33,087 nt of DNA from Lentisphaeria bacterium. Lineage in GTDB: Bacteria; Verrucomicrobiota; Lentisphaeria; Victivallales; Victivallaceae. Below the pieces are notes generated by a model. That model made no database searches, had not been told where the DNA came from, and was given only the letters and a program-made list of their open reading frames with translations. The stretch is from NCBI GenBank assembly GCA_017456285.1, contig JAFTJQ010000085.1:1-33087 (forward strand), in the 5' to 3' direction. How positions within the stretch are numbered: position 1 is the stretch's first letter; each line of letters starts with the position of its first letter. Shown in pieces: positions 19,907-33,087 of this stretch. The translations under genes were made by a program, and so were the position numbers.

Positions 19907-19987
19907 ATATTAAAAAGAAAATATAATAGTTTTATTAATTTTTGTAAATGCGATTTGCAAAAAAACAACTTTTTTTTATAAAAATGC

Positions 19988-20016
19988 TTGCTTTTTGCTT
20001 GACCTTGGTGTATGTT
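19988..20016 (+). promoter_or_regulatory. Possible promoter in the gap before the giant gene
   Basis: TTGCTT (19988-19993) and TATGTT (20011-20016) are 17 bases apart, pointing to the small ORF at 20053. The match is partial and unproven. Confidence 0.25.
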
Positions 20017-20052
20017 GTACGGTGTGTAATTATTTTCACGGAGTGTGTAGAA

Positions 20053-20385
20053 ATGTATAAAATTGAAAACACAAAAGATGTAAGTATTTGCATATCAACG
20101 AGAAACGACTTTGATAAACGCGTTATCAATGGCGTAGTTTCTTCGTGTGATATGGGGCTTATTCTATGTGTCAAAATTGCGAATCACTTTGATACTCAAG
20201 CACTTACAACTTCGGCTTGTGCTTTTGACAGAGTTATTACTGTAAATGGTGCATTTTCAACTTGTGAAGGTGATTATAAATTCGGCATGGTCAGGATTGC
20301 AAAGTCTTGCCGTTGGGGTGAAGTTAAGAATAATTCATTGTATAACGGAGGACGGCAGAGAGTTTTTTGCCGGTACAGACTATGA
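20053..20385 (+). CDS. Doubtful small cysteine-containing ORF of unknown function
   Basis: A 110-residue frame from ATG 20053 (GGAG 9 bases ahead) to TGA 20383-20385. It begins MYKIENTKDVSICISTRNDF, contains about eight cysteines, and has no recognised domain, signal or membrane span. The same frame is open upstream to an ATG at 19948, which would add a hydrophobic N-terminal stretch but lacks a clear ribosome site. It could be a real orphan protein, a decayed gene remnant, or a chance frame. It lies between citrate synthase and the hairpins before the giant gene. Confidence 0.25.
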   Translation: MYKIENTKDVSICISTRNDFDKRVINGVVSSCDMGLILCVKIANHFDTQALTTSACAFDRVITVNGAFSTCEGDYKFGMVRIAKSCRWGEVKNNSLYNGGRQRVFCRYRL

Positions 20386-20429: not shown

Positions 20430-20585
20430 GCAACCCCGTCACTCTAAAAAAAGAGCGGCAAGGGTTGCTTTGCGTTTTTTAGGAGAAAGGAAAAACTTTT
20501 TTCTTGACTGAAAGAAAAAAGGTTTTTCCTCTCTCCTAAAACCACTCACCTTTTCAAAAAAGAAAGCAATACTTTTTTGAGAAAA
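20430..20585. repeat. Three stacked hairpins in the leader region of the giant gene
   Basis: Hairpin A pairs GCAACCC (20430-20436) with GGGTTGC (20462-20468), with an inner CTCT/AGAG. Hairpin B pairs 20477-20503 with 20514-20541 over 26 base pairs, with one mismatch, one bulge and a 10-base loop. Hairpin C pairs 20551-20562 with 20572-20585, with a 2-base bulge. This dense structure resembles a mobile intergenic repeat or a strong terminator/insulator block. Which strand it serves is unclear. Confidence 0.6.
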
Positions 20586-20720: not shown

Positions 20721-20728
20721 AGAAAGGA
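20721..20728 (+). promoter_or_regulatory. Ribosome binding site that fixes the start of the giant gene
   Basis: AGAAAGGA lies 6 bases before ATG 20735. The in-frame TAA at 20717-20719 excludes any longer protein. The preceding 20660-20700 is AT-rich with several TATATA-like elements but no convincing -35. Confidence 0.7.
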
Positions 20729-20734
20729 CTCGAT

Positions 20735-23700
20735 ATGAGTACAACAATTTATGTTAATTCCACTTGGAAGAGTGGAGAAAAAGTTACGATCGACGGAGTT
20801 GAATACACTGTCGGTACCGACGCATTTACAAGTTATGATGGTGCATTGAATTATGCAAAAAATAATTCAACAGCACGCAATGCAACTATCGTGATGATGA
20901 AGAATTCCAGTGTTTCGGGAAATTGCATTGATCAAAATACTCATAAGGGCTACTACAATTTGAAAGTAACAATTCAAGATGGGGCTGTTATGGGTAACGC
21001 AAATAGTAAATGGGATATGACTTATGCCTTTACTGTTGAAGCTGGTGGTGTATTGCAGTCTGCACGTCCTGCATCAGCAGGATATGGTTATACACATGTT
21101 AAAAATGTTATGACTATCGGTGAAGCCGATGCTGAAAAACAGGCGGTTGTAGATTTCATTAATTCTCCGACTATTCCATACAAAACGATGTGTATCAGTG
21201 TTCTTTACAATGGTACACTGAATGTTACAAATGCTATTTTTAAGGTCGGTGATCTCGGAATGATTGGAAAATCTGAATTTACTGACAGTACTATCGAAGT
21301 TGCAGGATCAATTGGTTTTGCTGCCGGAACTCAAACCTGTGCAGGCAAACACTCAATGACAAATTCCACAATGACAGTTAAAGGTCATGACTTGCGTGGC
21401 GATAGTACATATTCTGCAGCAGATTGCAATCGTATTGCTAATTTGATTATGGATAATTCAACAATTATCATTGATGACGGTGTTGAAAATACTGCTGCTG
21501 ATGTTGTTGAACTTGGTGTTCTGAAAAGCGGTTTCTTGAATTCTAAAAAAGAATTGATTATGCAGAATAACTCCAAGATTACGGTTGAAGCAGGTACTCA
21601 AATTAATTTGCTTTATAATGTTTCTATGTCTGATTCAGTAATTGAAGGAGGAAACTTCAGCATTGTTTCTGGCGATCTTACTATGACAGGCAAATCAAAT
21701 CTTGATATCGCAGTATTGGATATTGCGGCAGAGAAAAAGATTGTTATCGACAATACTGCTTCAATCGTTGCAGATGCTTTGACCGGTACCGGTACTATTG
21801 AAATTAATGTAGTTGATGCAGTTGCAGGATTGGATAAAGTTATTGATTTGGCAGACGGTGCAGATACTACCGGTTTGATTGATAGAATTACTGTTAAACA
21901 GGACGGTTATTCAGCACTTATCAAAGACGGTGATGTTTATGTGGCAGCTTATCTCTATGTGGAAAGCGGTGTAGTTTCCGATATTACTGCTGCTTTAAGT
22001 TCCGCAGAGGGTAGAGTTGTTCAGATCAGCGGCAGATATGTCGATGTCGATCAAGCAACTATGGATGCGATTGCAAACGGCAATGTCAAATTTGCCGCAG
22101 GTACAATGTTATTTTTGGCAGAGGGTGTAACAACTGCTTACACTGATGCTAATTTGACTCTCAAAGAATTCGGCGTAAAAACCGACCTCGTTGACGGTGT
22201 AGTTGATTTGGCTGCTGACAATGCGATTGTAGCAGAGGACATTGAAAGCGATGCAAATATCGAGCTTACCACCGGAAATACTGTTGAGGGTGATGCAGAA
22301 GTTCGTGCTGATGTTACCGGTAAAGATGTAACACTTTCAAACAGCAAAAACCTCGCTGTTACCGGTTCAGTAAGCGGTTCAAATGTTGAAATTAACAATG
22401 CTGACGATGCGGTTTTGGACGGCGGCAGTGATGATTACAGTGCTAAAATCAGTGCTGATGAAAAAATTACTTTCGTCAATGACGGTCACGCAGTTGTCAA
22501 TATGAGTGCTAAAACAATTGAAATTGAAAACAATAGCGTAAATACTATTACCGGTAGTAAGTTAGAGGCTGAAACTGTCATCATTGATGCGAAAGAAAAT
22601 GCTGACGGTGTCGTTTCTAAAACTGAAATCATTGCGACTAATGTTGAAATTGCTGATCAGACTGTTTCTGATAGCAAAATTACAGGTCGTGTTCAAATTA
22701 CTGCTGATACCAGCTTGATTGATACCGAGGCAACAGGTGTTGTTTCTGTCGGTTTCGATAAAGAAAATACGGCTGATACGACTTTGACTCTCGGCGGCGA
22801 AACTACCATTGATACTTTGTATGTCGGCAAAGAGGGCAGAGAAAATAATTACAAAGTGGAAGTTGCCGGAGAGGATGCAGATGTTACTTTGAACAACCTT
22901 TACTCTCGTACTGATTCAGAGTTTGTTGTTTCTGATAAGGCTGAAGTTAATATAGGTTACTGGCAGAGCAAGGGTAATGTTGTTGTTGACAATGCGACAG
23001 TCAATCACAATGGTTGGAATATGTATGTTTACAACAATGACAGCACTTCAGTTTCTAAAATTACTTTGAAAAACGGTGCAGTTTTGAATTCAAATAATAG
23101 CGTCGGCATCGTTCTCGGTAACAAAAATGACAGTTCGGCAGCAGCTATCGGTAATGCTGAATTGGTTTTGGAAGGTAAATCAACTTTGAATGTTACCAAC
23201 TTGACCTTGCAGGCAGAGGGTGAAGTCGAAGAAGTTGCAGGCGAAAAAGCCGCAACAAGTATGACTATTAATGATTCAGAAGTTAATGTTGCAACAACTC
23301 TTACCAATAACAGCGTAATTAATATCGTGATGGGTGCAGAAGATTTGTCTGACGGTGTTGACGATGTTAATATTAATGCAAAAGCAATCAAAGGCAGTGG
23401 TACAATTATTATCGATGCAACCAAGTTTGCCGGCGGAGTTGACAAAGTAATCAACGTCAGCGAAGCAGGCGATGTTACAGTTGTTTTCAAAGAAGGTACT
23501 GCGGCAGAGGGCGTAAAAATGCTCGTCAATGAAGAGGGCGACGTTTTCGTTTCTGATGTAAAGGCGGAAACTCTCTATGTCGATGCAAATTTCAAGGGCG
23601 AATTCGGCGATATGGTCGGCGAGGGCATGTACTTGGGTATCAATGCTTTTGTTGATATGGATTCAGCAGTAAACGCTCTTGAAAATAACGAAACAACTAT

Positions 23701-26700
23701 TGTATTATCAAGCGATGCTGCAATGACAGCAGATCCTGCTTTCAAATTGAATATTATTTCCGGCGACGGCAAAGATCATACTTTGAAGATTGATTCAGTT
23801 ATTGATGTTGATGCTGAATTTGCCAAAGAAATCAATATTGATTCTGCTTTGTTCATGGCATACTATAATAATCACAAAGTTGTGGTTAATGGTGACTTGA
23901 AAGGCGGTTTCTACAACTATACAGGTTCTATGACTTTTAATAACAGCAAGATTACTGATAGTTATGATAACTCAAATATCGGTGGTGTGGTTACTATCAA
24001 CGGTGATGGTAATTGGACTCTCGAAAATGCTCAGGCTGATAATTTGAAATATCTCAATATCGGGCGTTCTGATTGGTTGGGACAGGGTATTTTGAATTTG
24101 AATGATACCGTTGTTAAAGCAATTGGATTGAATGTTGATTCAAATAGTGCTGACAAAAAATCTCAAATCAATGCCGTTAACAGCACAATTGCTACTGTAT
24201 TGAATGATGGCATTCATGGTTACTTGACTGTCGGGGCTAACGGAGAAGTCAACTTAACTGACAGTAATTTGATTGTCGGCGGTGCTTTTACCAATAACGG
24301 TACAGTAAATGTTTCAGGCAAGAGCAGTTTGCAGCTCGGTACTATTTCCGGTGATGGTGTAATTGACATTGCCGCAGGTACAACTCTGGTTGATACCGTA
24401 ATTACCGCAGGCAATATTAATCGTCATTCAGGAACAGTTTACTTCGAAGGTGCAAATAAATTGACTGGTACTTTCTCAAACAACCCTGCTGATTGGGATA
24501 TTGTAATCAATAAGGGTGCAAGTTTGGAAATTGCCCGTAGTTCTTATGTTCTCGGTTATGACCGTGATATTACTATTAATGGTTTGATCGAAGATGCAAC
24601 CACTTTGACTGCTAATGATTTGGCAAATACAATTCTCTCTTTCAAATCTAACAGTTCATCCGGTTTCAGCGTCGGCGGAACAGGCACAAATGTAGTTACT
24701 GTCAATGATGCTTATGTCGATTTTGCAAGTACAAGCTGGAAAAATTCATACGCAACCCATACTTGGAGTTTCACTAACTCTTATGTTACTGCTGCAAGTT
24801 TCGGTAATAATAATGCAGGTGCAAGTGATACTGCTTCATGGACTGTAACTTTTGATGACAGTGTACTTGCTGCTAATTATATCAAAACCGGTAAGGGTAT
24901 GATTTATAACTTTACCAATGGTTCACAGGCAAGTGCAGGATCAATGAGAATTGAGGGTGTTTTGAATGTTACAAGCGGCAGTAAAGTTTCAATTACTGCT
25001 TACCAGAATAATAAAAACGATGCTGCTGACGAGCATGGTGATATTACAGGAACAGTTGTCGTTGACAATGCGACATTGGATATCAATGGTGCTAAAACCC
25101 AGGAAGTTGAGTTGTTCTCAGGCGCAGAACTTACTGTTAAAAATAATGGTAAGTTGAACTTGAATGGACGCGCTCTTGATGTTATGACAGGTGCTGAATT
25201 CAATGTAGAAAATACCACTTTTGAGGCTGCTGAAGTCAATAACGCAGGTGCAATCAACATTAACGGTGCTCATTTCAGTGTAGATACTGTGAATAATAAT
25301 GGTACTGTCAATATTTCAGGTGAAAGCAATATTAACGGTACATTTGCCGGAAAAGCAGTTAAATTTGCTGACGGTACGATTTTGACCTCAACTGACGGCG
25401 TTAAGTTTGATAACACGCTCAGCGGTGCTGATATGACTTTCGGCAAGGGCGATTTCGATATGAATGGCTTTTATGTTTATTCAAATGATGATGTTGTCTT
25501 TGCAGAGGGTGCTGATGTCGATGTTGCAACTACTTTCGCTACTTACGACAGCGGTACAGTTAAAGTTGAAAAGGGTGCAGTCGCTGATGCTCTGTCTATT
25601 TATTTCAACGGCGGAAACATTGAAGTAAGCGGTAAATTGAGTGCTAAGAAAACAAGTGACGGCGGTTTTATTTTGAATGGAGCAGATGATACTGTTACCA
25701 TTAATAAGGGCGGTGTTTTGGATGTAAACTATGTTGATATTGGCAAAGCAAGTGGAAATTCAACAGTTGAAGTTTACGGCGAGGCTAAAACTTCATTCAA
25801 ACTTTCTGATGGCAACAAGGGCGGCAAATTCACTTGGAATATCTATGACGGCGGTTCATTAACTGCTGAAAAATATGGTATTGAGATGAATAATGCTGAA
25901 TCTGCAATCAATATTTATGGCGATGTAACTGCGGCTCAAGTCTCTAACGCAGGTTCAATCACCGTTGATGGCGGTAACTTGAATGTCGCAGGTACTTTTA
26001 CCAATAACGGTACAGTTAATGTTTCAGGCGAATCAACCCTCAATATTGACAAGTATAATAACGGCGGGTTTGTTTGGGGCAAAGCAATTCAGTTGCTTGA
26101 CGGTGCGATTATCAAAGATTCTAATGTCGGCGGTTATGTCGATGCAGTCGGTAAAGTTACTTTCCGCGGCGATAATACTTTCGGCACAATTCAGGACTTT
26201 GAAGCAAGTTATATTGATAACAATGAAGCTGTAAATAATACTGAAATGATCATCGAAAAGGGTGCTTCCGTAACTACTGAATCTGCGAAGTTTAATCTCG
26301 GCTTCGGTGATAAATTGAGTGTTTACGGTAACTTGGAAGATGCAAAGGCTGCTTATGAGGCAGGAACTTTGACACCAGATGATTACTCTTTGGATGCTCA
26401 AAAGGGTATGTTATTCCAGGGCAATCGTGCTGATGATGTTACTACTTTCAACGTTAATGATGCTTATGTAAGACTCGGTGCAAATGAGCAGAGTGTCGCT
26501 AATGCGAAGGATGAATACAAAGACCAGCGTGTCGGTACTTATAACTTCAACTGGACTAATGCTGTTGTTGAAGCAGAAGAAACCTTTGATTTCAAGGATT
26601 CAGGTGAATACAACGGTAACTACAACTTCAACTTGGATAATACCGTTTTGAAAGTCGGTGCAGTTGAAACTGATAAATCTTATGCTGATGCTGAAAATAA

Positions 26701-29700
26701 TCCTGCTTATCGCGGTGCAATCAACTTCGCTGACAAGGATTCAACTTTCAAGGCAAAAGATTCAAATGTTGTAGTTATCGGTAAAGAAAGCAACAACTAC
26801 AATGCCGGTACTTTCGAATTTGATAATTCTGAATTGAATTTGAATGCAGCTTTGGTAAATGACGGTTCAGCAACTTTCGACGGCGAAAACGCTGAATTGA
26901 ATGCAACTAATGTAATCAATAGAGGAACTATCACCCTCGCAAATGGTGCAGAATTGAATGCAGGCAGTTACTCTACTGTATCTGCGAAAGTTGCATTCTA
27001 TGACGGCAGCGATGAGCCGGAAAATATTACCTTCGTTGCTTATGATGAAGCAGGTAATGAAATCGGCAGAACTACTGCTTTCATTAACGGAATAGCAAAA
27101 GATAAGATTGAAGATGCGGTTGAAGTTGCAGTTGTCAAGGGTGCTTCATACAAAGCATTTAAGGCTGACGGAACTCAGATTAATGATGCGACATTTGAAA
27201 TCGTTGCCGACAGTTCAGATGCTAACTTGGTTCTCGATGAAACTGTATCTGTTAAGGTTGATACTTTCTATCATGGCGGTACAATCACAATCAATGTTTC
27301 TGACAGCTTCAGCGGTACAAAGACAATTGTTGATGTCGTTGACGGTGCAACGTACGGTGAAATTACTTTGGTCGGCGGTGAAGATGTCATTACTACCAAG
27401 AATGAAGAGGGCGACCTCGTAATTTACAAGGTTGATACCAATACTCTCTTTGTCAACTCTGAATGGGCAAACGTTGCTGATCAGACCGAAATTGCAACCA
27501 ATTTGGTCAAAGGTGTTAATGCTTTCGCTAATACAACTGACGCTCTTACCAAGGCGAACTCAATTGCCGCTGATGAAGAGGGCAAAAAATTCGTCATTCT
27601 CAATGTTGACAATATGGGCGATGCAAGTCAAAATTCTGAATTTGCTTTGACCAGTGCAGGCGAGTATGTCGTTACCGGCGGTAACGGTTCTAAATTTACT
27701 CCGATTTTGGTTAATGGCAAAGATGTTAAACTCAAATTTGACGGTGCTTTCGTTACTTTGGGTAAATTGAGAGGCGGTAAAGATGGCACCGGTGTTTATC
27801 AGAAAAATTCTATCGAAATCGTTGACTCTGTTATCGCTCAAACTACTTATGCCGGATACGGCGGCGGTTGGGCAACTTTCTATGATTGCTCTGTAACCAT
27901 TTCAAATTCTATCTACGGTATCAATTTGAGCAAATATGATAACGCTTTGGAATTGCCGAGAAGTGCGGAAGATATCAAAGCTGCTATTGAAAAAGGTGAA
28001 TACACCTTGGCAAGCGGATTTGGTTATGACGGACAGCATATCGGTACTGTCGGCTTCTTCGATATTAATGATTCAACCGTCTTTACCGGATTCTTCTCTG
28101 TATCAGATCGCGGTTACGCTGATATTGACAACAGTGTAATTTATCTCTGCGGAGGTATGGGTATCGGCGATGGTGCAATTAAGAATGGCAGCGACTCAAA
28201 TGAATCCGGATGGGGTTCAACTTCTGCGGAAGATTACCGTGTCGGTGAAGTCGCAACCATGGATGTTACTGATTCAATCGTTCGCAACCTCTCATTGAAT
28301 GGCAATGGCGGCGGTCTCCAAGTCGGTGGTGATAATAAAGCAGGTGTCCTGAATATCACCAATTCAGAAGTTGATTTCTCTGTCAAAGCTGATAATTGCG
28401 ATAAAGTAGCAATTTATGAGAATGGTACAATCAATATGACTGATTCTGTCTTCAAGGCAGGTTCTGTTACCAACAACGGTACAGTCAGTATTGAAAATTC
28501 AACTTTGAGTGCAGATAGCGTAATCAATGACGGCTCTATCAATGTAAGCGGTGCAAGTGATATTAATACCACCGTTTCAGGTAAAGGCTGGATCTATATG
28601 AATAATGCTTCTTTGGATGCTGATACCAATATCCAAGGTGCTAATGTCCGCTTCACCAATGGTACAAGCACTCTTGACGGTGCAACCATTCAGGGTAATG
28701 CTTTCCAGGTAGGTGTCGGCGGTTATCAGCTCAAAGATGAGAGAGAAAATGTTGCTGACGTTGTTGTCAATGTCACTAATGGCTCATTCATCGGCGGTCC
28801 TGATGTCGATTACAGTGGCTGGGTCGGTACCGGTTGGTTCGAAGATGATGCAAGCAAGACTGCGGCAATGACTGCTGCTCGTTACACTTTGAATATCGAC
28901 AAGTCAAATGCTAATTTCGGTTACTTGCATGTATCTAATGACGGTATCTTGAATGTTACCGGCAATGCTGAAGAAATGCAGAAATACATCGGAGTTGACC
29001 ATAGCTTCTATACCGGTCGTTTCATCGTCAATGGTGTAGCAACTTTCGACGGAGTTAATACTCTGGTTCAATTTACCAATGTTTCACCTGATAACGGCAG
29101 CGAAATCCCCGGTAAATTGGTCATCAAGAACGGTGCAAATTACGTTTCATATTTGGATAGCACAAGCTTGCTGGAAACTGTTCAAATTTCAAAGAATGGT
29201 ATTATCGAAGTTGATAATGCTACTTTGGATGCTCGCCATACCACACTTATCGGTGAGGATGGTACTTTGAGTGTCAATAATGGTAATTTCCTCGGTAATG
29301 CCGTAACTAATAACGGTAACTTCAATGTCAGCGGTGAGTCTCACCTCGATATTGACAGCGTAAGCGGAAATTCAATCAGATTAAATGGTTCATTGACCGA
29401 TTCAACTCTCGGCAGCGGTAATGTTTTGGTTGTCGGTGATAGTGCGATTAAGGGTGAAGAATCAACCATTAATGGCATGGTCAAAGGAACAAACGGTTCA
29501 ACTTTGACTGTTGAAAGCGGAACAAAGTTGGTTGTTAAACAACTTGCTTTCGGCGATGATAATTATCCGTCATTGAATATCGGCAGTGTCGAAGATGCCG
29601 CAAAAGGCGGTAATATGGTTATCAAAGGTACTGTTATCGGTATGGATGGTGAAGCGGACGAGGAAAACAGCGGATTGAGTCTCAATGTGGATGCAAATGC

Positions 29701-32700
29701 AGTTGTTACTGTTGAGAACGGCGGTAAGTTGTACACAAGTCAAATCGCTGTCGAAAACGGCAACGTTGAATTGGGTGAAACTGATAAAGCAGGTGTACTC
29801 AATATTAAGGAGGGCGGTTATGTTTTCGCTCGCTTCTTCAAGGCATTTAATGGCGGTGTGATCAATGTTGACGGTACTGTCAGATTAACCCACTCTGATC
29901 CGAGACAAGCTTGCTTGCGGGCTATGGAGGGCGGTGTAATTAATGTCGGTACTACCGGAAGCATTGTTGTTGATAGACATCGTGCTATCGTTTACTCCGG
30001 CGGTGTATTGAATGTCAATGGCGGTAATGTTACTGTTTCACAAGCTGATACAACCAAAGGCGATGCGTTCTTGGTTGAGGCAGATGGTGTTCTTAATCTT
30101 ACTAATAACGCAACTATTAATGTCAGCGGTATTTTGACCAATAATGGTACAATTACTCTTGATGAAAAGAGTTCAATCGTGCTTGACGGTGCTTTCGCAA
30201 CTACTGACGGTATCATCTCTATCAATGTTACTGACGGTTGGGTGGGTTCAAAAGTCCTTATCGATGCTGAAGAGGGTACTGAATCATTCGGCAACGTCGT
30301 CGTTGATGAAGCAGACGCCGCAAATGGTGTTATGACTTATATCGATAAAGTTACAGGTGACCTCATCGTTTACAATGTTGCAAAAGATGTAATCTATGTC
30401 AACTCCGCTTGGGCTGACAAAGGTTATACTTTCGGTGCAGTGGTCGAAGACGGCAAAGTCTATGGCATCAATGCTTTCGATAATCTCGAAAACTTCACCG
30501 TAAATGCTGATGTCGCAACTTTGAATATTGCAGGCGGTACTTACACCCCGACAGCAGGTAACTGGGTAGAATTGTTGAAAGATGGTGTAACTGCTGTAAC
30601 TACTGACGGTCTCGTAGTCGCTGAAAAGGGTAACTTGTATTTCAGTAAAAGCGAAGCAGGTACTTACACAATCAGCGGTTCTTACCAGACAACCGGCACA
30701 GAAGGATTCTTGTGGGAAAATGGTCAGAACCTCGGCTGGAAGACAAACGGAGTTATCCGCTTCCAGGGTGCTGACGATGTCGTATTCAATATTACTGATG
30801 CCAATATCACTTCAAGTGCGGCAATTCAGTTCATCGGCGGCAAGAGCGTTATCGCTGCAGATTCTGTTGTAAGCAGTGATGCACAGAAAGAGTCAAAAAT
30901 GGCAGTTTACGGCGATGTTGTAAACTATGGCAAAATTGAACTCGTAACTACCGGCAACCCCGGTACTGCATTGCTTATCGGTCACAACAGTTATGCTTCA
31001 AATGCTAATAAGTTGACCGTTTCAGGCGAAAATGCTTCTGTCATGATTGATACAGGTGCTACTGTTGATGCAAATATTCACTCAACTGGTACTTTGATTG
31101 TTGAAAACAATGCTGAATTTACCGCGACAGGCAGTGTTGTCAATGACGGCAAAGTTACTGTTGACGGTGCTGATTTCAATGCAGGTAAATTGACCAATAA
31201 CGGTACATTCACCGCAACTAATGATGTTAACTTGAATATCGGCGATTTGGAAGGCAGAATTACTCTTGAAAATGCAACAATCAAAGACGGTTCAGTCATC
31301 GGCAATGCTGAGGCGCCTGCCGGATGTGTTGATATTATCGGCGAAGAAATCAATTTCGACGGTAAAGTTGTTATCAATTCAGCTGTAAATGCTAATATCG
31401 CTGATAAAGACGGTAACAGTATTAATACTGCTATCAATATTAATGAGGGTGCTGATGTTACTTTCAATACTAAACAGTTCGATGACGGTACTTATTCAGG
31501 CGGATTCAATACCAATGCAGGTGATAAGGTAAATGTCGCAGGTAAACTCACAATTACAGGTGCTAATGTTTACTTGAAAGCTGAAACTCTCGTCGCAGAA
31601 AACGGTGAATTCATCGTTGATGACGCAGGATTCCAGAATACTTACGGCAAGTTGACTGTCAAAGGTGATATGACCATTATTGATACCTATGAAGACGGTG
31701 CTTACCAGAATATTAAGTTGGCAGGTAATGACAATCCGAATACTACCGGCGAACTTGATGTTGACGGCGGTACTTTGACCATTGATGGTCCGTCTTTCGC
31801 TTTCGGCGGCGGTTACAAATCTAATGGTTGGGTTGATGTAAAAGAATCTTCAGTCCTCGTTCAGAATGGTGGTAAGATTACTGCTAATTCAATCATTTTC
31901 CGTAATGGTGTAAGCAATACTTTGACCTTGAATAACGGTACTTTCGAATTTACTGAAGCGCCTGACTTCACAAACGGTGGAACTAATACTGTAAATGAAA
32001 CTCTCGGCTTGACTGTTGATAATAAGGGTGTTATCAATGCAAGCAACGCAAGTACAGTTGATTTCGGCGATCGTGAACTTATCAACGACGGTTCAATCTC
32101 TATTGATTCTTCTGATTTCAGTGCTGGCAGCGTGGTAAATAATAGCGATATCACTCTTAAAGGTGATGCAAGTTTGAGTACCGAGGACTTCGATAACAAT
32201 GCTACTTTGACTCTCGACGGTTTCAACGGTACTTTGACCGGTGTCACCAAACTCGATGATGAAGCAGTTACAGGTAATATCGAGGTTTACGGCAAAACTG
32301 TTATCAAGGATAGTTTTGATACCGCATTGCTCTCTGTCGGTGCTAAACTTGCAGAAAGAAAACTCGGAAGTGATTCTTTGACTATTGCTGACGGTGTTAC
32401 TGCTAATATGGCAAATCTCTATGTCAAAGCAAGCAGCTCAATGAATATTGCTGCCGGTGCAGAGGTTAATGTAATCGGTTTCTACAACAAGACTGACAGC
32501 TTCGGCGGTGACGGGCTTTTCGCTTCATACGGCACTACTAATGTTGACGGTACCTTGAATGTAAGCAATAACTCCGGCTGCGGTGACAACAAGATCGGAT
32601 ATACCTCTTATGCTAATGAAAACGGCGTCGCAGTCGTTAATGTCAATAAGGGCGGTGTATTCAACTTGACCACTGTCGGCGCTGAGGGTGCAGAAAATTC

Positions 32701-33087
32701 ATTGGTAATTGATACTGATGGTACTCTCAATGTCAATGGCGGTACTTTCAACGCTGATGACAGAGCAACTGTTGTAAATAACGGTAACTTCAATGTCAAT
32801 GGTGAGGCAACTATCAATGCAGTTGTCAGCGGAAATGCTATCAATGTTGCTAAAGATGCAAACTTGGTTGACAGCGATATTACTGCTGACCTCAAGCTCG
32901 CAGGAAACATTACTTTGACTGACAGCAGCTTGGACGGTAAAGTCAGCGGCAAGAAGGACATTACTCTTGACGGCGTCAATACTGTCAAATTCGCTGAAGG
33001 CAGTGAAGTTGCTAACTTAATCGTTGACGGTGCAGTTGCTGATACAATTACTGCTGATTCAGTTATCGGAAACGTCGCAATTAAGGG
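20735..33087 (+). CDS. Giant modular beta-strand-repeat surface/adhesin-like protein, 3' end outside the window
   Basis: The frame runs without a stop for 4,117 codons and continues past the window edge. The residues present alone exceed 400 kDa. Composition is rich in Asn, Asp, Gly, Val, Ala and Thr, poor in Pro, Arg and Cys, and clearly acidic. Short beta-strand units such as G-x-L-N-V and TNNGTVNVSG recur throughout, which suggests a right-handed beta-helix or similar solenoid. Five large modules start near residues 5, 407 (divergent), 947, 2238 and 3220 with a (I/L)(Y/F)V-type segment, clearest as IYVNSTW and IYVNSAW, followed in most by G(I/V)NAF. No Sec or Tat signal is present at MSTTIYVNSTW, and an in-frame stop blocks extension. 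A C-terminal sorting or barrel domain, if any, is not visible. An extracellular adhesin or matrix role is inference from architecture. Confidence 0.9.
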   Translation, partial: MSTTIYVNSTWKSGEKVTIDGVEYTVGTDAFTSYDGALNYAKNNSTARNATIVMMKNSSVSGNCIDQNTHKGYYNLKVTIQDGAVMGNANSKWDMTYAFTVEAGGVLQSARPASAGYGYTHVKNVMTIGEADAEKQAVVDFINSPTIPYKTMCISVLYNGTLNVTNAIFKVGDLGMIGKSEFTDSTIEVAGSIGFAAGTQTCAGKHSMTNSTMTVKGHDLRGDSTYSAADCNRIANLIMDNSTIIIDDGVENTAADVVELGVLKSGFLNSKKELIMQNNSKITVEAGTQINLLYNVSMSDSVIEGGNFSIVSGDLTMTGKSNLDIAVLDIAAEKKIVIDNTASIVADALTGTGTIEINVVDAVAGLDKVIDLADGADTTGLIDRITVKQDGYSALIKDGDVYVAAYLYVESGVVSDITAALSSAEGRVVQISGRYVDVDQATMDAIANGNVKFAAGTMLFLAEGVTTAYTDANLTLKEFGVKTDLVDGVVDLAADNAIVAEDIESDANIELTTGNTVEGDAEVRADVTGKDVTLSNSKNLAVTGSVSGSNVEINNADDAVLDGGSDDYSAKISADEKITFVNDGHAVVNMSAKTIEIENNSVNTITGSKLEAETVIIDAKENADGVVSKTEIIATNVEIADQTVSDSKITGRVQITADTSLIDTEATGVVSVGFDKENTADTTLTLGGETTIDTLYVGKEGRENNYKVEVAGEDADVTLNNLYSRTDSEFVVSDKAEVNIGYWQSKGNVVVDNATVNHNGWNMYVYNNDSTSVSKITLKNGAVLNSNNSVGIVLGNKNDSSAAAIGNAELVLEGKSTLNVTNLTLQAEGEVEEVAGEKAATSMTINDSEVNVATTLTNNSVINIVMGAEDLSDGVDDVNINAKAIKGSGTIIIDATKFAGGVDKVINVSEAGDVTVVFKEGTAAEGVKMLVNEEGDVFVSDVKAETLYVDANFKGEFGDMVGEGMYLGINAFVDMDSAVNALENNETTIVLSSDAAMTADPAFKLNIISGDGKDHTLKIDSVIDVDAEFAKEINIDSALFMAYYNNHKVVVNGDLKGGFYNYTGSMTFNNSKITDSYDNSNIGGVVTINGDGNWTLENAQADNLKYLNIGRSDWLGQGILNLNDTVVKAIGLNVDSNSADKKSQINAVNSTIATVLNDGIHGYLTVGANGEVNLTDSNLIVGGAFTNNGTVNVSGKSSLQLGTISGDGVIDIAAGTTLVDTVITAGNINRHSGTVYFEGANKLTGTFSNNPADWDIVINKGASLEIARSSYVLGYDRDITINGLIEDATTLTANDLANTILSFKSNSSSGFSVGGTGTNVVTVNDAYVDFASTSWKNSYATHTWSFTNSYVTAASFGNNNAGASDTASWTVTFDDSVLAANYIKTGKGMIYNFTNGSQASAGSMRIEGVLNVTSGSKVSITAYQNNKNDAADEHGDITGTVVVDNATLDINGAKTQEVELFSGAELTVKNNGKLNLNGRALDVMTGAEFNVENTTFEAAEVNNAGAININGAHFSVDTVNNNGTVNISGESNINGTFAGKAVKFADGTILTSTDGVKFDNTLSGADMTFGKGDFDMNGFYVYSNDDVVFAEGADVDVATTFATYDSGTVKVEKGAVADALSIYFNGGNIEVSGKLSAKKTSDGGFILNGADDTVTINKGGVLDVNYVDIGKASGNSTVEVYGEAKTSFKLSDGNKGGKFTWNIYDGGSLTAEKYGIEMNNAESAINIYGDVTAAQVSNAGSITVDGGNLNVAGTFTNNGTVNVSGESTLNIDKYNNGGFVWGKAIQLLDGAIIKDSNVGGYVDAVGKVTFRGDNTFGTIQDFEASYIDNNEAVNNTEMIIEKGASVTTESAKFNLGFGDKLSVYGNLEDAKAAYEAGTLTPDDYSLDAQKGMLFQGNRADDVTTFNVNDAYVRLGANEQSVANAKDEYKDQRVGTYNFNWTNAVVEAEETFDFKDSGEYNGNYNFNLDNTVLKVGAVETDKSYADAENNPAYRGAINFADKDSTFKAKDSNVVVIGKESNNYNAGTFEFDNSELNLNAALVNDGSATFDGENAELNATNVINRGTITLANGAELNAGSYSTVSAKVAFYDGSDEPENITFVAYDEAGNEIGRTTAFINGIAKDKIEDAVEVAVVKGASYKAFKADGTQINDATFEIVADSSDANLVLDETVSVKVDTFYHGGTITINVSDSFSGTKTIVDVVDGATYGEITLVGGEDVITTKNEEGDLVIYKVDTNTLFVNSEWANVADQTEIATNLVKGVNAFANTTDALTKANSIAADEEGKKFVILNVDNMGDASQNSEFALTSAGEYVVTGGNGSKFTPILVNGKDVKLKFDGAFVTLGKLRGGKDGTGVYQKNSIEIVDSVIAQTTYAGYGGGWATFYDCSVTISNSIYGINLSKYDNALELPRSAEDIKAAIEKGEYTLASGFGYDGQHIGTVGFFDINDSTVFTGFFSVSDRGYADIDNSVIYLCGGMGIGDGAIKNGSDSNESGWGSTSAEDYRVGEVATMDVTDSIVRNLSLNGNGGGLQVGGDNKAGVLNITNSEVDFSVKADNCDKVAIYENGTINMTDSVFKAGSVTNNGTVSIENSTLSADSVINDGSINVSGASDINTTVSGKGWIYMNNASLDADTNIQGANVRFTNGTSTLDGATIQGNAFQVGVGGYQLKDERENVADVVVNVTNGSFIGGPDVDYSGWVGTGWFEDDASKTAAMTAARYTLNIDKSNANFGYLHVSNDGILNVTGNAEEMQKYIGVDHSFYTGRFIVNGVATFDGVNTLVQFTNVSPDNGSEIPGKLVIKNGANYVSYLDSTSLLETVQISKNGIIEVDNATLDARHTTLIGEDGTLSVNNGNFLGNAVTNNGNFNVSGESHLDIDSVSGNSIRLNGSLTDSTLGSGNVLVVGDSAIKGEESTINGMVKGTNGSTLTVESGTKLVVKQLAFGDDNYPSLNIGSVEDAAKGGNMVIKGTVIGMDGEADEENSGLSLNVDANAVVTVENGGKLYTSQIAVENGNVELGETDKAGVLNIKEGGYVFARFFKAFNGGVINVDGTVRLTHSDPRQACLRAMEGGVINVGTTGSIVVDRHRAIVYSGGVLNVNGGNVTVSQADTTKGDAFLVEADGVLNLTNNATINVSGILTNNGTITLDEKSSIVLDGAFATTDGIISINVTDGWVGSKVLIDAEEGTESFGNVVVDEADAANGVMTYIDKVTGDLIVYNVAKDVIYVNSAWADKGYTFGAVVEDGKVYGINAFDNLENFTVNADVATLNIAGGTYTPTAGNWVELLKDGVTAVTTDGLVVAEKGNLYFSKSEAGTYTISGSYQTTGTEGFLWENGQNLGWKTNGVIRFQGADDVVFNITDANITSSAAIQFIGGKSVIAADSVVSSDAQKESKMAVYGDVVNYGKIELVTTGNPGTALLIGHNSYASNANKLTVSGENASVMIDTGATVDANIHSTGTLIVENNAEFTATGSVVNDGKVTVDGADFNAGKLTNNGTFTATNDVNLNIGDLEGRITLENATIKDGSVIGNAEAPAGCVDIIGEEINFDGKVVINSAVNANIADKDGNSINTAININEGADVTFNTKQFDDGTYSGGFNTNAGDKVNVAGKLTITGANVYLKAETLVAENGEFIVDDAGFQNTYGKLTVKGDMTIIDTYEDGAYQNIKLAGNDNPNTTGELDVDGGTLTIDGPSFAFGGGYKSNGWVDVKESSVLVQNGGKITANSIIFRNGVSNTLTLNNGTFEFTEAPDFTNGGTNTVNETLGLTVDNKGVINASNASTVDFGDRELINDGSISIDSSDFSAGSVVNNSDITLKGDASLSTEDFDNNATLTLDGFNGTLTGVTKLDDEAVTGNIEVYGKTVIKDSFDTALLSVGAKLAERKLGSDSLTIADGVTANMANLYVKASSSMNIAAGAEVNVIGFYNKTDSFGGDGLFASYGTTNVDGTLNVSNNSGCGDNKIGYTSYANENGVAVVNVNKGGVFNLTTVGAEGAENSLVIDTDGTLNVNGGTFNADDRATVVNNGNFNVNGEATINAVVSGNAINVAKDANLVDSDITADLKLAGNITLTDSSLDGKVSGKKDITLDGVNTVKFAEGSEVANLIVDGAVADTITADSVIGNVAIK
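20744..20878 (+). repeat. Module-start segment, copy 1 (N-terminus)
   Basis: Reads IYVNSTW, then a short strand pair and GTDAFTSYDGALNYA. This is the protein's own N-terminus, so the polypeptide starts directly with a module head. Confidence 0.7.
21791..22020 (+). repeat. Module-start segment, copy 2 (divergent)
   Basis: The linker GTIEINVVDAVAGLDKVID and KDGDVYV match the linkers before copies 3-5, and LYVESG replaces LYVNS. The GINAF block is missing, so this copy is degenerate or a different class. Confidence 0.5.
23399..23760 (+). repeat. Module-start segment, copy 3
   Basis: Linker GTIIIDATKFAGGVDKVINV, then NEEGDVFV, then LYVDANFKGEF and LGINAFVDMDSAVNALEN. Closest to copies 4 and 5. 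Confidence 0.7.
24281..24319 (+). repeat. TNNGTVNVSG repeat unit, DNA copy A
   Basis: 39 bases encoding GAFTNNGTVNVSG. It matches 25991-26029 at 37 of 39 positions, about 1.7 kb away. Confidence 0.65.
25991..26029 (+). repeat. TNNGTVNVSG repeat unit, DNA copy B
   Basis: 39 bases encoding GTFTNNGTVNVSG, differing from copy A at two bases. More diverged relatives of the same unit occur near 25291, 28468, 29311, 30136, 31192 and 32776. Confidence 0.65.
27278..27660 (+). repeat. Module-start segment, copy 4
   Basis: Linker GTITINVSDSFSGTKTIVDV, then NEEGDLVIYKV, then LFVNSEWANVADQT and KGVNAFANTTDALTKA. The NEEGD(V/L) block is shared word for word with copy 3. Confidence 0.7.
30209..30540 (+). 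repeat. Module-start segment, copy 5
   Basis: Linker GIISINVTDGWVGSKVLIDA, then GDLIVYNV, then IYVNSAWADKGYTFG and YGINAFDNLENF. It is followed by a strand-rich block ending in GGTYTPTAG. Confidence 0.7.

Follow-up and report, generated by a model that had tools for sequence, protein, structure and literature searches.

Giant type I adhesins such as SiiE and the MpAFP- and Aeromonas-type RTX adhesins are very long, acidic and repetitive proteins without an N-terminal signal, extended by Ig-like domains of ~100 residues each. Self-associating autotransporters such as antigen 43, AIDA-I and TibA represent a different pathway, type V export, which requires an N-terminal Sec signal. A [FLI][VAI] pair at the last two positions has been described as characteristic of RTX substrates of type I secretion (PMC8861453), and the Lentisphaerae have been found to be enriched in huge proteins without a COG assignment (PMC11573180). 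Here we describe a giant gene from a gut-type member of the Lentisphaeria, lying at the 3' end of the window, that is, of the whole stretch of DNA analysed, which is the entire 33,087-base contig C79 of a 2.42-Mb assembly in 92 contigs. Comparison of sequences across the class suggests that its product is probably a giant surface adhesin with type I export via a C-terminal signal beyond the contig end.

A giant coding frame that runs off its contig

The frame and its parts are listed in Table 1. At 41% GC, where the chance of a stop is 0.066 per codon, a stop-free run of 4,117 codons has a probability of ~1e-123, and the remaining five frames across the same stretch contain 98-548 stops each. 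Codon-position composition is steady along the whole length of the frame, and over 270 codons aligned to a relative in L016 (73% amino-acid identity) the differences at the first, second and third codon positions number 52, 36 and 143. The predominance of third-position differences, together with the steady composition, indicates a coding frame under selection at the protein level, and makes a frameshift artefact, which the initial annotation had raised as a possible error, unlikely. The other features that it had read from the sequence stand as well: a frame open from its ATG to the contig end, an in-frame TAA that bars a signal peptide from lying upstream, and an acidic product that starts with its first module and has no N-terminal export signal.

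Table 1. Positions in the window of the giant gene, its modules and its start signals.
Feature	Positions	Strand	Description
In-frame TAA	20717..20719	+	stop that ends the reading frame ahead of the giant ORF start
Shine-Dalgarno-like AGAAAGGA	20721..20728	+	six bases before the giant ORF ATG
Giant ORF	20735..33087	+	ATG start, 4,117 codons (20735-33085), no stop, 3' end beyond the contig
Module 1	20735..23572	+	residues 1-946, opens IYVNSTW, without signal peptide
Module 2	23573..27445	+	residues 947-2237, opens LYVDANF...GINAF, closest to L016
Module 3	27446..30391	+	residues 2238-3219, opens LFVNSEW...GVNAF
Module 4	30392..33087	+	residues 3220 to the contig end, opens IYVNSAW...GINAF, incomplete

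Because the window is the whole contig, the giant gene is unfinished and its 3' end is missing. The last 300 bases have no other significant match in the assembly, and a search of the assembly with the module junction and the C-terminal third of an intact-tail relative found no continuation.

The other genes of the window are ordinary; those scanned include a melibiase-type hydrolase, an esterase, a helicase, a prepilin-like protein, a GntR regulator, an LptF/G permease, an AAA protein and a phosphoesterase. A long, near-perfect hairpin (20476-20546, -32.5 kcal/mol) occupies the intergenic stretch before the giant gene and has no counterpart in the other loci of the genome that were read. Farther upstream, an open frame of 145 residues (19948-20385) has no Pfam match and may not be a gene.

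Acidic modules with a predicted beta-strand-rich fold

The 4,117 residues at hand amount to 430 kDa with a pI of 4.2 and include 544 acidic residues, 254 basic residues and ten cysteines. They are arranged as four chained modules of ~900-1,290 aa, each opened by an [LI][FY]V[ND] motif (at residues 5, 947, 2238 and 3220) that is followed in the last three modules by G[IV]NAF. The start of module 2 reaches 67% identity with L016 in the best segment. At the N-terminus, the hydropathy maximum in a 15-residue window is 0.47, against 1.9-3.2 for genuine export and anchor sequences of the same genome.

Pfam and NCBIfam scans and a PDB sequence search of the giant protein gave no significant match, and the residues at hand contain neither the Gly/Asp-rich RTX nonapeptide repeats of PF00353 nor AIDA-type strand-loop-strand repeats (TIGR04415 / PF16168). 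RTX repeats may yet lie in the tail beyond the contig end, as they do in four paralogues. The first 420 aa, modelled from the single sequence, are beta-strand-rich (pLDDT 67), and the best solved-structure match to this model in a fold search was antigen 43 (E 6e-4, low TM-score); a search of viral folds returned no significant match. Structure prediction agrees with the beta-strand character first read from the sequence for this N-terminal part, but for module 2, modelled from two sequences, it reached a pLDDT of only 42. On the basis of the N-terminal model and its fold match, it is likely, with moderate support, that the modules are beta-solenoids.

Relatives end in different domains and a common dipeptide

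A profile of the module junction matched 27 of the 198 genomes of the class, in open frames of 991-6,172 aa that include relatives from another family of the order (L112, L113 and L114; 5,300-6,172 aa). Among named relatives, the closest is a contig from a sheep-colon Lentisphaeria MAG. The module family is apparently lineage-specific. It is apparently also new to the literature, as no paper describing it was found in the open-access literature, the scope of our search. An alignment of all giants over their full length, obtained by BLAST with composition correction off, was rejected as composition-driven.

Fourteen relatives have an intact 3' end; the start is visible in 10 of these, and the frame of the other four runs past the 5' limit of the retrieved sequence. 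A hydrophobic N-terminus is absent from all 10 with a visible start. The terminus [FLI][VAI] is found in 12 of the 14 and in 6 of 139 background proteins, the non-giant products of the same loci (Fisher p 7e-12, an optimistic value because the 14 include related sequences). Sorted by our own reading of the alignment, the intact tails fall into at least three types: about nine relatives share a beta-type domain with a consensus near EFGSSLSG...NDFxGDTL, two have FG-GAP-like repeats, and the remaining three end in some other way that matches no family. An autotransporter barrel or an RTX-type domain had been put forward as what such a tail might hold; no barrel was recognised by family match at the scanned tails of the intact-3'-end relatives, and RTX or FG-GAP repeats are present in some only. 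That unrelated tail types nevertheless have their last two residues in common argues for a shared terminal requirement.

RTX-type paralogues and type I machinery in the same genome

Proteins with an RTX-type C-terminus and without an N-terminal signal are encoded on contigs C7, C81, C23 and C73 of the same genome, and three of the four score above the PF00353 cut-off. The tails of the C7 and C81 proteins are intact, both ending in LA; those on C23 and C73 are truncated where their contigs end. N-terminal signals are equally lacking from the full set of five further RTX-type or giant-like proteins, the fifth being a giant-like protein on C74 (L090:4388-11563, ~2,350 aa) that has a weak module-junction match and ends in MN, off the [FLI][VAI] pattern. 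Of 25 RTX-type tails in genomes of the family, 17 have [FLI][VAI] as their last two residues. AIDA/strand-loop-strand repeats (TIGR04415 / PF16168) precede the RTX-type C-terminus in the paralogues on C73 and C7, and the genome encodes a TibC-type heptosyltransferase (585 bits, cut-off 200). An autotransporter-type passenger and its glycosyltransferase are here combined with a type I-type tail, and the AIDA-type, autotransporter-like passengers of this genome are apparently on type I secretion.

AIDA-repeat/RTX-tail proteins and a TibC-type heptosyltransferase occur in one genome, at L014:3662-8872, L007:4791-7271 and L060:1961-3277. Several RTX-tail genes are broken at contig ends (the end of L014 and the starts of L006 and L015) inside near-identical C-terminal sequence, and the last 74 bases of C73 recur in C81. 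Contig C77 opens with an orphan 54-residue tail of RTX type, which could belong to the giant gene or to C73; an assignment to the C23 protein was rejected, as C23 ends within the same stretch and its residues differ.

The genome also encodes an HlyB-like ABC transporter of 911 aa; among solved structures, E. coli HlyB is its best sequence match (480 bits). The transporter's C39-like N-terminal domain reads as lacking the catalytic Cys, and its TIGR01846 (HlyB) score of 627 is below the strict cut-off of 725.55. The adjoining gene encodes an HlyD adaptor (282 bits, above the cut-off of 208.65), and OEP/TolC-type channels are encoded elsewhere. Nearby ABC, MFP and TolC genes had been suggested as a pointer to the export route: no secretion gene was seen beside the giant gene within the window, and the HlyB/HlyD pair and the TolC-type channels lie elsewhere in the genome. 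HlyD is encoded by 63 of the family's 78 genomes; among the 16 with junction matches, the two without it are both incomplete. As HlyD is near-universal in the family, its co-occurrence with the giants is uninformative; its presence is required by the type I model and has no discriminating power.

Discussion

The product of this gene would be a giant, acidic adhesin of tandem, probably beta-solenoid modules, either surface-exposed or released. An uncleaved C-terminal signal beyond the contig end would be read by a type I system, and one-step export through the HlyB-like ABC transporter, the HlyD adaptor and a TolC-type channel would need no Sec or Tat signal. We infer that the giant protein itself has a type I-style terminus, is exported by the HlyB-like transporter of this genome and serves in adhesion or contact between cells. 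Homology explains the missing signal peptide: relatives and paralogues that also lack one mostly have type I-style termini. The initial annotation had left a choice between a C-terminal signal, type I-like or lineage-specific, and cytoplasmic storage, with neither described by the sequence at hand. This holds for the window, but the relatives, the paralogues and the HlyB/HlyD pair elsewhere in the genome point to type I secretion, which lends the C-terminal type I-like signal the support of homology and disfavours storage.

A type V, autotransporter-like passenger with a barrel beyond the contig end would fit with antigen 43, itself an autotransporter passenger, as the best fold match, and with the AIDA-type repeats and TibC-type heptosyltransferase of the same genome. 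We regard it as very improbable, since a Sec signal is absent from the giant protein and from the relatives with a visible start, none of the intact-3'-end relatives has a recognisable C-terminal barrel, and the AIDA-repeat paralogues bear RTX-type C-termini instead. A lineage-specific route other than type I, reading the conserved C-terminal domains, is unlikely in our view, even though most end domains of the relatives lack a family match, with RTX or FG-GAP repeats in some only, and the HlyB-like protein is both long (911 aa) and under the strict HlyB cut-off. Against such a route, tails of at least three unrelated types share their last two residues, the published type I mark (PMC8861453), and the genome encodes a full type I set. 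The missing signal peptide would also be expected of a cytoplasmic storage or scaffold protein, and is compatible with a decaying, functionless gene, but purifying selection in the stretch aligned to L016, the same architecture in 27 genomes, a composition and fold typical of surface proteins and the type I-style termini of the relatives leave this reading with very little credibility.

On a broader and tentative level, for which we see somewhat less than even chances, Lentisphaeria may have transferred beta-solenoid passengers of autotransporter style, and heptosylated ones of AIDA type, to type I secretion, giving a family of modular giants of up to ~6,000 aa whose interchangeable C-terminal domains share only the last export residues. 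A module family with a testable export route would explain signal-less giants in the Lentisphaerae, where huge proteins are uncharacterised (PMC11573180), and it suggests that beta-solenoid and heptosylated adhesins of gut bacteria are not tied to the autotransporter pathway. Whereas the survey of huge proteins (PMC11573180) gives no family, structure or export route, we define a module family, describe its tails and point to a likely route.

The giant protein resembles the self-associating autotransporters antigen 43, AIDA-I and TibA in its beta-solenoid-like passenger, as judged by fold match, and in having a TibC-type heptosyltransferase and paralogues with AIDA repeats in its genome. It departs from them in that neither the giant nor the checked relatives have a Sec signal, the relatives' tails have no recognised barrel, and the giant itself is without AIDA/TIGR04415 repeats. 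With SiiE and the MpAFP- and Aeromonas-type RTX adhesins, on the other hand, it shares great length, acidity, repetitiveness and the lack of an N-terminal signal; as in those systems, its relatives bear type I-style termini on C-terminal domains of RTX or other type, and its host genome has HlyB/HlyD/TolC-type genes. Its modules of ~900-1,290 aa, probably beta-solenoid, differ from their ~100-residue Ig-like extender domains, most of its relatives end in non-RTX domains, and no transporter genes stand beside the giant gene. Judged by its sequence and those of its relatives, the giant is most likely a variant of the giant type I adhesins.
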